From Dyella flava (GTDB lineage Bacteria > Pseudomonadota > Gammaproteobacteria > Xanthomonadales > Rhodanobacteraceae), in contig NZ_JADIKE010000035.1 of NCBI RefSeq assembly GCF_016904955.1, positions 62,001-126,000 of the forward strand: a DNA stretch of 64,000 nucleotides. Reading direction: 5' to 3'. Positions 32,035-35,232 of this stretch are shown here, in pieces. Position 1 is the stretch's first letter; each line of letters opens with the position of its first letter. The notes beneath the pieces were generated by a model. That model did no database searches and was not told the DNA's origin. It was given only the letters and a program-made list of their open reading frames with translations. Made by a program: the position numbers and the translations under genes.

Positions 32035-33038
32035 GGCAGATCCAATGCAGTAACACGGGCGACGAAACGGTCGCGTTGCGGGTTGTCGAGCAGACCAGCC
32101 CAGGTCGCGCCAATGGCGCCGCGCAGGCTGGCAATGCGTTGCAGGCTGGCTGACGATGGCGACGAGGGTATGGCGGCAATCGCCTCCTCCACCACCTCCG
32201 GGAAGCAGGCCAGTACCAGATCGCAGCCGGCCGCCAGATGCGCCTGGACACGCGCCCTGACCCCACCGGCCACACCAGCCGCGGCCATGCTGATGTCATC
32301 ACTGATGACCGCGCCCTGGAAACCCAGCTCTTCGCGCAGGATGCCGTGGATCCAGCGATGCGAGAAGCCCGCCGGCTGCTCGTCGACCGCGGGATAGACC
32401 ACGTGAGCCATCATCACTGCTTCGGCATGCGCGGAGAATGCCTCGGCGAAGGGGCGTAGGTCGTTCTGGCGGATGTCATCCAGCGAACGCGGATCGATCG
32501 CCTGGGCCTTGTGCGTATCCACAGCCACCGAGCCATGTCCCGGGAAATGCTTGAGCACGGCCGCCATGCCGCCCAGGTGCATGCCGCGCACATAGGCGTG
32601 GATCAGCTCGGCCGTCACGCCCGGATCGGCGTGGAAGGCACGCGCACCGATAGCGGCGTTTCCGCGTGCCAGATCGGCCACCGGCGCAAAGCTGAAATCG
32701 ATACCACTGGCGCGTAGCTCGCTGGCCATTACCCAGGCGTGTTCTTCGGCCAGGCGCGCCGCTTCGCCGGGATCACGGTCGTACATCTCGCCGATCCTGG
32801 CCAAGGCAGGCAGCCGCGTAAAGCCGTCGCGGAACCGCTGTACAGGCCCCCCTTCCTGGTCGACCGCCAACAGAAAATCTTCCCCGGCGACGGCGCGAAT
32901 CGATTCAACCAGCGCGAGCAACTGATCGCGGCTGGCAAAATTGCGCGAGAAGAAAATGACACCCGCAACACCTGGCGCGGTCAGCCAGGCGCGTTCGTGC
33001 GGCTGCAGCTCGGTGCCGGCGATACCAATCAACAGCAT
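32031..33038 (-). CDS. nagZ: Beta-N-acetylhexosaminidase NagZ
   Basis: Cytoplasmic family-3 glycosidase that removes GlcNAc from anhydro-muropeptides in cell-wall recycling, and so affects AmpC induction in many Gram-negatives. The 335 residues include VDQEGGPVQRF, FAPVADLARGNAAIGARAF, the catalytic-site KHFPGHGSVAVDTHK (His of the acid/base dyad) and the nucleophile Asp in AVISDDISMAA. It lies in a tight operon: its start shares a base with the CYTH stop (TGATG) and its end overlaps hpt by 4 bp. Confidence 0.96.
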   Translation of the reverse strand: MLLIGIAGTELQPHERAWLTAPGVAGVIFFSRNFASRDQLLALVESIRAVAGEDFLLAVDQEGGPVQRFRDGFTRLPALARIGEMYDRDPGEAARLAEEHAWVMASELRASGIDFSFAPVADLARGNAAIGARAFHADPGVTAELIHAYVRGMHLGGMAAVLKHFPGHGSVAVDTHKAQAIDPRSLDDIRQNDLRPFAEAFSAHAEAVMMAHVVYPAVDEQPAGFSHRWIHGILREELGFQGAVISDDISMAAAGVAGGVRARVQAHLAAGCDLVLACFPEVVEEAIAAIPSSPSSASLQRIASLRGAIGATWAGLLDNPQRDRFVARVTALDLP

Positions 33039-33577
33039 CAGGCATGATCTCCCTGGGCGAGCTGCGCATCAGTCGCATCGCGCTCGGCATCCGTCCATTT
33101 GGCGAACGGATGCTCGATCAGATTGACGTTGTAATAGCGCGCCAGATCGCTGACTTCGCGCCCCAACCAGGCTGGACGCGGAAAATCTGCATCGGTGGCG
33201 GGCAGTTCGATTTCCGCGACGATCAGGCCCCGGTTATCGCCGAGAAACTCATCGATCTCGAACAGCCAGCCGTCAATGTCAACGTGATGGCGCGTTTTCT
33301 CCAGCGTGCCATCGCACAAGGTTTCCAGCATGGATTGCGCATCGGCCAACGGCAAAGGGAGTTCGTATTCGCTGCGGGCAATGCCGAGCTCTACCGACTT
33401 GATGTTGAGCCAAGCCTGCTCGCCACTGATACGCACCCGCACCGATGCGCGGGCCGCGCCATCGCGCAGTGCGCGCACGTTGACCAGATAACCCTGCGCA
33501 ATGTGCTTGCTGTGCGTGACAGCTGCGCGCCAGGCGTCACTGGCGAGCAGGAATTTGCGTTCGATTTCAATACCCAT
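33038..33577 (-). CDS. CYTH-domain protein (triphosphate-binding tunnel family)
   Basis: A 179-residue single CYTH domain. The defining EIERKFLL is at the N-terminus, with alternating charged strands (ASVRVRISG, WLNIKS, RSEYELPLP, EIDEFLGDN, LIVAEIEL) lining the tunnel. Bacterial relatives are inorganic triphosphatases, thiamine-triphosphatases or class IV adenylate cyclases; a triphosphatase is the safer guess. The native-looking start is the ATG at 33577. Right behind it begins a 30-bp inverted-repeat end that supplies its ribosome-binding region, and an in-frame ATG inside the repeat would add MDKSIP. Confidence 0.9.
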   Translation of the reverse strand: MGIEIERKFLLASDAWRAAVTHSKHIAQGYLVNVRALRDGAARASVRVRISGEQAWLNIKSVELGIARSEYELPLPLADAQSMLETLCDGTLEKTRHHVDIDGWLFEIDEFLGDNRGLIVAEIELPATDADFPRPAWLGREVSDLARYYNVNLIEHPFAKWTDAERDATDAQLAQGDHA

Positions 33578-33773
33578 AGGGATGCTCTTATCCATTATTC
33601 GTAGGCGTCACCAGCCCTACGCTTCAATTTCAAATGACCAGGCGATGTCCAGAAGGCTCGCAGGACGTGCCGCGCGGATTGAACAGACGGCCAGTCTGCC
33701 CTGCGCCACCCAACATACCCTGAGAGCTTTCTGGACATCATGCCGCCTACGAATAATGGATAAGAGCATCCCT
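33578..33773. mobile_element. 196-bp MITE-like element with perfect 30-bp terminal inverted repeats
   Basis: The terminal arms 33578-33607 and 33744-33773 are perfect inverted copies (30/30). Inside them a second, imperfect inverted pair (GATGTCCAGAA-GCTC at about 33644-33660, complemented at 33719-33738) extends the foldback. The remaining core is about 55 bases. No transposase or convincing protein is encoded. The element exactly fills the gap between the CYTH start codon and the rlmD stop. Each end carries an outward-facing ATGGATAAGAGCATCCC. No target-site duplication is obvious. Confidence 0.75.
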
Positions 33774-33778
33774 GGATT

Positions 33779-35092
33779 TTACCTGCGCTCGAACAGTGCA
33801 ATGGATTCGACATGCGCGGTGTGCGGGAACATGTCCATCACACCTGCCGAAACCAGCCGGAAACCATGCTGATTGACCAGGATGCCGGCGTCGCGCGCCA
33901 GCGAGGCTGGATGGCACGACACATAGACGATGCGCCCGGTCTCTTTGTGCGGCAGATATTCCAGCACCTTGTCGGCGCCCGCGCGCGGCGGATCGAGCAG
34001 TAGCTTATCCCAGGGTTTGCGCGCCCAATCGGTACCGCGCTGATCTTCGAACAGGTTGGCTACGTTGAAGCTCGCGTTGGCAATGCCATTGCGAGTGGCA
34101 TTATCGGCTGCGCGCGCGACCAGGCCATGTTCACCTTCAACGCCGGTGACTTCGGCGACACGCCGCGCCAACGGCAAGGTGAAGTTGCCCAGGCCGCAGA
34201 ATAGATCGAGTACGCGATCTTGCGGTTGCGGGTCCAGCAACTCCAGCGTGCGCGCCAGCATGCGCCGGTTCATGCCGGCATTGACCTGCACGAAATCAAG
34301 CGGCTGGAACTCCAGCTCGACGTCCTCAACCCCTTCGCCGCCCGGAATGCGGAACGCAAGCCGCGGGTTTTCCGGCCACAGCGCATGCACGCTGCTAATG
34401 CCACCGGGCTGCAGATAGATGGCAAAACCATGCGCTTGCGCGAACGCCACCAGCTTGGCGCGATCGCTGTCACTCAAAGGTTTGAGGTGGCGAAACACCA
34501 GCGCAACCGTGTCGTCACCCGCGGCGAATTCGATCTGCGCGATATCGGCCGCGGAATCCATGCTGCCGACCAGCTCGCCCAGCAGGCCGATCTTCGGGCC
34601 GATGGCGGGATGCACGACATCGCAATGCGTAATATCCGCCACGAAGCGCGGATTGCTTTCTTCGCGAAAACCCACCAGCACACGCCCTTTTTTTGCGACG
34701 GCGCGTACCGACAGGCGCCCCTTGCGCCGATAGCCCCAGGGCTCATCGGTAAGCGGCGGCAGCCAGTTTTCCGGTTCGACCTTGCCGATGCGTGTGAAAT
34801 TGTCGACCAGTACGCGCTGCTTGGCTTCAATCTGCGCGAAAGCATCCAGATGCTGCAATGAGCATCCGCCGCACTGGCCGAAGTGACGACAACGCGGCTC
34901 CACGCGATGAGGCGACCGGGTAAGCACCTCGATCGTTTCGGCCTCGTCGAAATTGCGGTGGCGCTTGCGGATCTTCAAGCGCACCTGCTCGCCAAGCAAT
35001 GCGCCACTGACAAAAACGGTCTTGCCGTCGATCCGGGCCACACCCCGGCCGTCGTGACTCAAATCGGTGATGGGAGCTTCTAACTCGCTCAT
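33779..35092 (-). CDS. rlmD: 23S rRNA (uracil-1939-C5)-methyltransferase
   Basis: SAM-dependent enzyme making m5U1939 in 23S rRNA. The 437 residues comprise an N-terminal TRAM domain (ITDLSHDGRGVARIDGKTVFVSGAL), an iron-sulfur cluster motif (CRHFGQCGGCSLQH), the SAM site (VLDLFCGLGNFTLPLA) and the catalytic cysteine region (LLDPPRAGADKVLEYL, then VYVSCHPASLARD). The ATG at 35092 is taken; two codons upstream a GTG is also in frame. The stop lies 6 bases from the inverted-repeat element. Confidence 0.97.
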   Translation of the reverse strand: MSELEAPITDLSHDGRGVARIDGKTVFVSGALLGEQVRLKIRKRHRNFDEAETIEVLTRSPHRVEPRCRHFGQCGGCSLQHLDAFAQIEAKQRVLVDNFTRIGKVEPENWLPPLTDEPWGYRRKGRLSVRAVAKKGRVLVGFREESNPRFVADITHCDVVHPAIGPKIGLLGELVGSMDSAADIAQIEFAAGDDTVALVFRHLKPLSDSDRAKLVAFAQAHGFAIYLQPGGISSVHALWPENPRLAFRIPGGEGVEDVELEFQPLDFVQVNAGMNRRMLARTLELLDPQPQDRVLDLFCGLGNFTLPLARRVAEVTGVEGEHGLVARAADNATRNGIANASFNVANLFEDQRGTDWARKPWDKLLLDPPRAGADKVLEYLPHKETGRIVYVSCHPASLARDAGILVNQHGFRLVSAGVMDMFPHTAHVESIALFERR

Positions 35093-35232
35093 TGGCACTC
35101 TTTGTAAAGCGTAGCGCCCAGATCCGCCGACCCGGGCAAGATGAAAGAAAGTATCAGGCTAAAGAAGCCTCGCTAGCTGTCCATGATACCAGCCAGGGCC
35201 GGCTGCCTCCGGACCTGCTTTCCTGACAGCAC

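Follow-up and report, generated by a model that had tools for sequence, protein, structure and literature searches.

A shortened member of a MITE-like foldback family at the rlmD–CYTH junction of Dyella flava, and the concerted evolution of the family's paired arms

The rlmD–CYTH junction

In the 64-kb stretch of the Dyella flava genome considered here (referred to below as the window), a 196-bp foldback occupies positions 33578–33773, between a gene resembling rlmD and a CYTH gene. The rlmD gene lies upstream of CYTH and the two are read in the same direction. The features of the junction, from the upstream gene to the downstream one, are these:

33779–35098, minus strand: rlmD-like uracil-5-methyltransferase gene (PF05958, E 4.7e-23; the name rlmD comes from the initial reading of the sequence)
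33578–33773, no strand assigned: the whole element, internally shortened (196 bp against a usual full length of about 265–288 bp)
33741–33773, minus strand: right terminal inverted repeat, arm B of the outer stem, paired with arm A
33640–33743, plus strand: hairpin 2, with the nested stem 33644–33664/33719–33739
33611–33639, plus strand: deletion point (hairpin 1 gone) and linker, seen as a gap against full-length copies
33578–33610, plus strand: left terminal inverted repeat, arm A of the outer stem, with 0 mismatches to arm B in the 28 positions counted from GGATGC
33593–33595, minus strand: element-borne ATG in the CYTH frame, which on translation adds MDKSIP
33038–33577, minus strand: CYTH gene with its own ATG (PF01928, E 4.7e-14)

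The perfect terminal inversion of 30 nt that was first noticed in the bare sequence is present; by our own estimate, a perfect inverted pair of this length is expected by chance at about 1e-11 for 64 kb. Taken as 33 nt each (33578–33610 and 33741–33773), the arms are 97% complementary. The nested imperfect pair described in the first-pass annotation was likewise recovered, at 33644–33664/33719–33739 (21 nt, 90% complementary), and the outward motif that it placed at each end, ATGGATAAGAGCATCCCT, can indeed be read at both termini. Folding of the 196-bp element lies far below that of shuffled sequences (z −12.7 and −12.6 for the two strands). In agreement with the first-pass annotation, no internal ORF codes for a transposase.

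When the window copy is compared with the family profile, columns 1–39 align to 33580–33618 and columns 132–287 to 33616–33771. A covariance model of hairpin 2 (R1) matches G000:C33:95640–95743, which corresponds to hairpin 2 of the window and whose core palindrome, CAGACGGCCAGTCTG, is found at 33684–33698. Judged from these alignments, the window copy is an ordinary, if shortened, member of the family, from which hairpin 1 has been lost.

The first-pass annotation also saw an exact fit of the element between the CYTH start and the rlmD stop, together with start signals supplied to both sides. The fit is exact at one side only: the CYTH ATG (33577–33575) abuts the element, but the rlmD TAA (33779–33781) is five bases off. 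The start signals are a fact of the sequence on the CYTH side, where the in-frame N-terminal extension by MDKSIP from the element's ATG is real, but they show little specificity, and the ATG on the rlmD side is antisense to rlmD. An AAGAG stretch, proposed to be ribosome-binding-like, is present but in our judgement is a weak match. The ATG arises from one of three variants common at this place in the arm (A-U in 14, C-G in 8 and U-A in 6 of 28 copies). Our own hexamer gene caller finds 179 gene starts opposite the 150 insertions of the family, and it sets 10 of them at this place. CYTH retains its own ATG, which is there in all 41 of the relatives inspected (of 80 loci); the best-matching relatives of the gene are from Dyella.

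Consensus scans of 33450–33900 found neither a sigma-70-like promoter nor an intrinsic terminator. In close relatives, CYTH starts within about ten bases of the rlmD end, so that the insertion parts CYTH from that stretch; from the arrangement of the sequence, altered CYTH expression through the insertion, such as the operon rewiring proposed in the first-pass annotation, is possible.

A dispersed family with three stems

The element is multicopy. The D. flava genome yields 36 BLASTN pieces of it at 19 places, and a search for the arm pattern with up to two mismatches gives 49 matches in the same genome against 0 for a reversed control. BLASTN matches were obtained in 20 of 41 genomes, including 15 of the 16 that belong to the genus Dyella (the D. 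flava genome counted). At the level of the order, a hairpin 2 covariance search (with strict filters and 26 candidates scored per genome) found matches at E ≤ 0.001 in 25 of 151 genomes, spread over 15 of 64 genera; 12 of those 25 genomes, in 7 genera, match at 1e-10, and the weaker matches short of this value may be due to chance. The element matches nothing in the phage and plasmid collections searched. In the open-access literature, searches naming Dyella returned no paper, and what one naming Rhodanobacter returned was off topic as listed. We take the family to be a MITE, built of three stems and ending in IS5-type tips, that is apparently undescribed.

Three sets of elements are referred to below: 54 arm-bounded elements, then 127 distinct full-length copies and 150 distinct insertions. 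Copies were sampled from 140 genome stretches and from loci returned by searches, and make up a part of all copies; the collection rule, by which both arms match the consensus with at most 4 mismatches of 16, leans to intact copies. Gene contexts were taken from our own hexamer gene caller. Alignment A1 contains 28 of the 54 elements, namely those of 260–290 bp that could be oriented, minus five (L052_1329, L188_1169, L189_2143, L013_1503 and L047_1478), and alignment A2 omits L041.

In the full form, of about 265–288 bp, the terminal repeats pair as an outer stem of 28 bp, inside which come hairpin 1, a linker and then hairpin 2. At the centre of each hairpin is the palindrome CAGAC-GGCCA-GTCTG, which runs in opposite senses in the two. 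This three-stem architecture persists across genera though arm sequences differ. One copy in the D. flava genome (L012, 1474–1761) has very different outer arms (AAGGCAACGCTGATCAAG) that are matched to each other nonetheless, with the usual hairpins within. Several contigs begin within or beside element copies (C1, C6, C27, C38 and C43 of G012, at their starts, and C11 and C13 of G011).

Insertion sites and target

Empty sites are found in relatives as well as further copies, and the element is not a single copy held at this locus in all of them. When the window flanks are joined, they align with no difference in length to the corresponding loci L059, L063, L064, L070, L073 and L076; the remaining aligned CYTH loci give gaps of −11 to +53. 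In named genomes, a profile search (E 0.001) covering 80 CYTH loci found the element in none, the only match being a core fragment at L065. Sequence comparison thus places the insertion at rlmD–CYTH as one that arose in this lineage. In two Dyella species other foldbacks, with GAGCCTG tips, are located right after the rlmD stop (L062, 5732–5982, and L065, from 5828), that of L065 having the core palindrome in common with the window family. The rlmD–CYTH junction has therefore been struck more than once.

Across the family, TA is present at both ends of 63 of the 150 insertions, at one end of 42 and at neither end of 45, and the tip bases are paired in 146. Of the insertions with TA at both ends, 25 have CTAG on both sides and 11 have TTAA. 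Comparison with the empty site gives a length difference of −2, as a TA duplication would, at three independent insertions (L252; L055 with its orthologue L293; L186); the orthologue of L252, L241, gives −1, and other insertions range from −13 to +40. Our reading of these figures is that the target is a TA, duplicated within a palindromic site, with later change blurring the duplication. A 4-bp duplication of CTAG (25 of 63) was considered but is disfavoured by the −2 gaps and by pairs such as CTAA..TTAG. A target-site duplication is thus apparent from the sequences of the family as a whole but is not clear for the window copy, which has ATAG on the left, CTGG on the right and a gap of 0, with no clean TA duplication. 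The description of the element as MITE-like and non-autonomous holds: it is multicopy, with empty sites and TA or CTAG flanks, and lacks coding capacity.

At 118 gene ends that face an element, the stop codon consists of exactly TA plus the tip base in 26 cases and is a TGA inside the arm in 11. The insertions lie between tandem genes in 94 cases and between divergent genes in 41, with 12 convergent and 3 unclassed. A terminator or promoter role was set aside: none was found by consensus scan and only those 12 of the 150 insertions are between convergent genes.

Arms that evolve together

The two arms of each stem change in concert. Standard pairs fill 97.7% of cells in the 28 full-length copies, and double changes are seen in 62 of 97 pairs, a level reached in 0 of 500 shuffles; the structure used in this shuffle test came from the same 28-copy alignment. 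Over the 28-position arms, there are 1.88 mismatches within a copy against 6.33 between copies (n = 51, 3 of 54 pairings having been dropped; 0 of 5000 permutations). Double changes climb with the divergence of the copies compared, from 0.7 to 20.7 per comparison, and single changes are flat at 4–6 for divergences of 8–28% and stand at 6–8 beyond (comparisons under 230 columns were excluded).

The same pattern can be followed at fixed positions in the genome, for which six orthologous filled sites are available (L185/L199 among them). The three full-length orthologous pairs have 6, 8 and 9 double changes against 2, 4 and 2 single changes (23 against 8), every one of the double changes being from one Watson–Crick pair to another. 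The three partial pairs are less clear (3/8, 3/2 and 1/4 double/single). Compensated changes at orthologous sites indicate that the matching of the arms is maintained after insertion, although gene conversion by a copy elsewhere, or two separate insertions at one position, could conceivably account for them instead.

How the matching is maintained is a matter on which we can offer a tentative preference. It is possible, at something less than an even chance, that the arms are continually re-matched by a process acting on the DNA at fixed sites. Covariation would then arise without a functional RNA, and the arm sequences would turn over from one subfamily to another while the architecture and the core motif persist. 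Template switching between arms is described as a documented source of compensated changes in PMC8794818 and PMC8604942; the cases presented there are RNA genes and yeast coding genes, whereas here we are dealing with dispersed mobile elements and orthologous sites.

It is also possible, if somewhat doubtful, that purifying selection on the folded DNA (as a cruciform or hairpin), for example for a transposase or a host protein, keeps the arms matched. Sixteen young copies in the genome G019 have 20 single stem changes (11 distinct) and 0 double changes, which counts against instant copying and in favour of selection. At the orthologous sites, double changes amount to 7–11% per pair against 18–23% for unpaired changes; the stems are therefore slower per pair, which leaves room for selection, and the architecture is kept across genera despite the differences between arms. 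Set against this, matched long inner stems have no obvious value at fixed intergenic sites, and the divergence of unpaired columns is similar to that of the flanks at those sites (18–23% against 13–23%). The ratios of transitions to transversions (444:217 for double changes, 714:258 for single changes and 726:1022 for unpaired changes) are taken as non-decisive. In our assessment, copying and selection on the DNA fold are about equal, with DNA-level copying between arms slightly ahead as the likeliest cause of the matching.

A transcript with a conserved fold?

Covariation is usually read as strong evidence of functional RNA, and conserved covariation was the sign by which the first-pass annotation would have recognised a structural RNA in place of a mobile element. 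The covariation proved to be very strong, but it comes without the bias between strands that an RNA working within the transcript should show. The premise here is that a fold in the transcript would make G.U pairs more frequent than A.C pairs on the transcribed strand. In 83 tandem copies the transcribed strand has G.U 91 against A.C 115 (p 0.11), and none of five helix groups is in excess. The missing wobble excess on the transcribed strand favours, as far as the sequences allow, a DNA-level cause over RNA.

A conserved structural or regulatory RNA, with stems held by selection on RNA pairing, does find support in the strength of the covariation and in the compensated changes at fixed sites. 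It also finds support in the orientation of the 83 tandem full-length copies, of which 58 are antisense to transcription and 25 sense. Read in the orientation of the element itself, G.U slightly outnumbers A.C overall (176 against 134, p 0.02), and in the 127 copies G.U is in excess in the inner portion of hairpin 1 (56 against 12) and in deficit in the stem of hairpin 2 (13 against 32; 1 against 11 in the 28-copy set). These two helix biases, however, favour opposite strands. The sites are dispersed and mostly lineage-specific, with empty counterparts, which also speaks against a conserved RNA, and a search of Rfam gave only a weak match to MIR918 (26.3 against a gathering score of 268 bits). 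We regard such an RNA as unlikely, while acknowledging that a neutral reading at the DNA level accounts for neither the helix biases nor the orientation bias.

A candidate mobiliser

Insertion sequences (ISs) of the IS5 family with TA flanks are found in six genomes of the same bacterial family (G003, G009, G021, G173, G187 and G194). Their ends, recognised by an inverted repeat and TA flanks, were recovered in 10 of 34 loci, which correspond to six distinct ISs; the IS in G003 is 845 bp long without the TA and has 24 matches to the transposase query. NCBIfam assigns the transposases to the IS5 family, and the term ‘IS427 type’ is a label of ours, based on their size, their split frames and their flanks.

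At one of its ends (GGGCGTGTCATCAAT), the G021 IS is identical at 15 of 15 bases to the tip of a subfamily of elements in G019, which represents a different genus. The tips of the G003 and G187 ISs resemble those of the GAGCCTG elements, that of the G194 IS (GAGTGCCTAACAAAA) is unlike every element tip and the window tip has only a partial likeness to the recovered IS tips. Neither the listed arm positions nor the recovered IS ends revealed an IS that has the GGGATGCTCTGATC tip. Beyond the tips, the interiors of the element and of the ISs have no clear likeness. Within the IS5 family, most members of the IS427 group listed in PMC3281130 are given a 2-bp duplication. The element is like this group in having a 2-bp duplication, and its bacterial family has ISs of 816–848 bp that carry TA flanks and tips of similar sequence; the element differs in having no transposase, and the resemblance is limited to the tips. 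From these sequence likenesses we infer that the family is mobilised in trans by an IS5 enzyme of the IS427 type.

The G019 genome, which is complete, houses a subfamily of near-identical copies, which have GGGCGTGTCATCAATC at their tips and flanks that are mostly CTAG. Its inward arm pairs are spaced at 269 bp in 21 cases and at 146 bp in one, and 14 of the copies differ by 0–6 of 265 bases; no autonomous copy with these tips was seen in G019. A degenerate inward pair with a related tip lies 1.8 kb apart in the same genome (L372, 1697–3523); its ends enclose an unrelated ORF and an IS5-type transposase that is truncated.

Other candidates fell away. Inspection by eye of the listed positions for an autonomous copy with the window tip gave a single inward pair with a spacing in the range 0.6–3 kb, that of 2.1 kb in G000:C34, which consists of a 287-bp element and a two-mismatch match and has no recognised transposase; the gene within this spacing we take, by its motif, to be tsaD. 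The only PF01609 gene of the D. flava genome, 0.3 kb from a copy, is of the IS4 type, with different ends of its own, and the contig ends of G012 proved to be those of the element.

The TA flanks and terminal inverted repeats would suit an IS630/Tc1-mariner-type MITE such as Correia or RUP, but PF13358 (DDE_3, the IS630 domain) occurs in only 1 of the 16 Dyella genomes, G007, itself without a BLASTN match to the element, and the similar tips are on IS5-type ISs; we consider this origin very unlikely. A palindrome of the REP/BIME type, mobilised by a RAYT (IS200/IS605-like), a kind of multicopy extragenic palindrome that PMC2817692 describes in Xanthomonas and Stenotrophomonas, is scarcely credible for an element of about 265–288 bp at full length with paired termini, TA target flanks and tips that lack the REP head GT(A/G)G as defined there.

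Relation to known elements and proposed scenario

Correia/NEMIS, RUP and ERIC, as described in PMC2229807, are MITEs that like the Dyella element are small and non-coding, with terminal inverted repeats, TA ends, target duplication, a stable fold and inward-reading stop codons. The Dyella element differs from the MITEs treated in that review in being longer than their under-200-bp units and not A+T-rich, in being made of an outer stem, two hairpins and a linker, in having tips of IS5 rather than IS630 type and in the joint evolution of its arms. In the CIR elements of Caulobacter and Brucella, as presented there, a linker connects two hairpin arms, an arrangement shared with the Dyella element, but the ends of CIR do not pair into an outer stem.

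Taking the evidence together, we think it probable that the window foldback belongs, in shortened form, to a non-autonomous, MITE-like family that is mobilised by an IS5/IS427 enzyme, inserts at TA and has its arms re-matched after insertion. The hosts of the family are the Rhodanobacteraceae and some other Lysobacterales. Most likely, an IS427-type transposase acting in trans recognises the outer arms, and insertion would take place at the TA within CTAG or TTAA. The base at the tip would then complete a TAG or TAA at the target, with the result that insertions at gene ends are tolerated. One copy landed between rlmD and CYTH, in a row of genes read in the same direction, in this lineage, and lost hairpin 1 before or after landing. 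Following insertion, a change in one arm would be matched in the other, so that the arms stay complementary, perhaps by arm-to-arm copying in replication through template switching in the hairpin.

Implications

The repeat family is present in nearly all the Dyella genomes examined (15 of 16), where it breaks some assemblies and creates new gene ends. The concerted evolution of its arms is the unusual part and is worth specialist attention. Many dispersed mobile copies covary without transcribed-strand bias, and the orthologous sites allow the process to be tracked, which makes the proposed matching of hairpins by DNA template switching directly testable in ordinary soil bacteria. If the proposed reading is true, the family would offer a natural assay of template switching as well as a warning for covariation-based RNA discovery.
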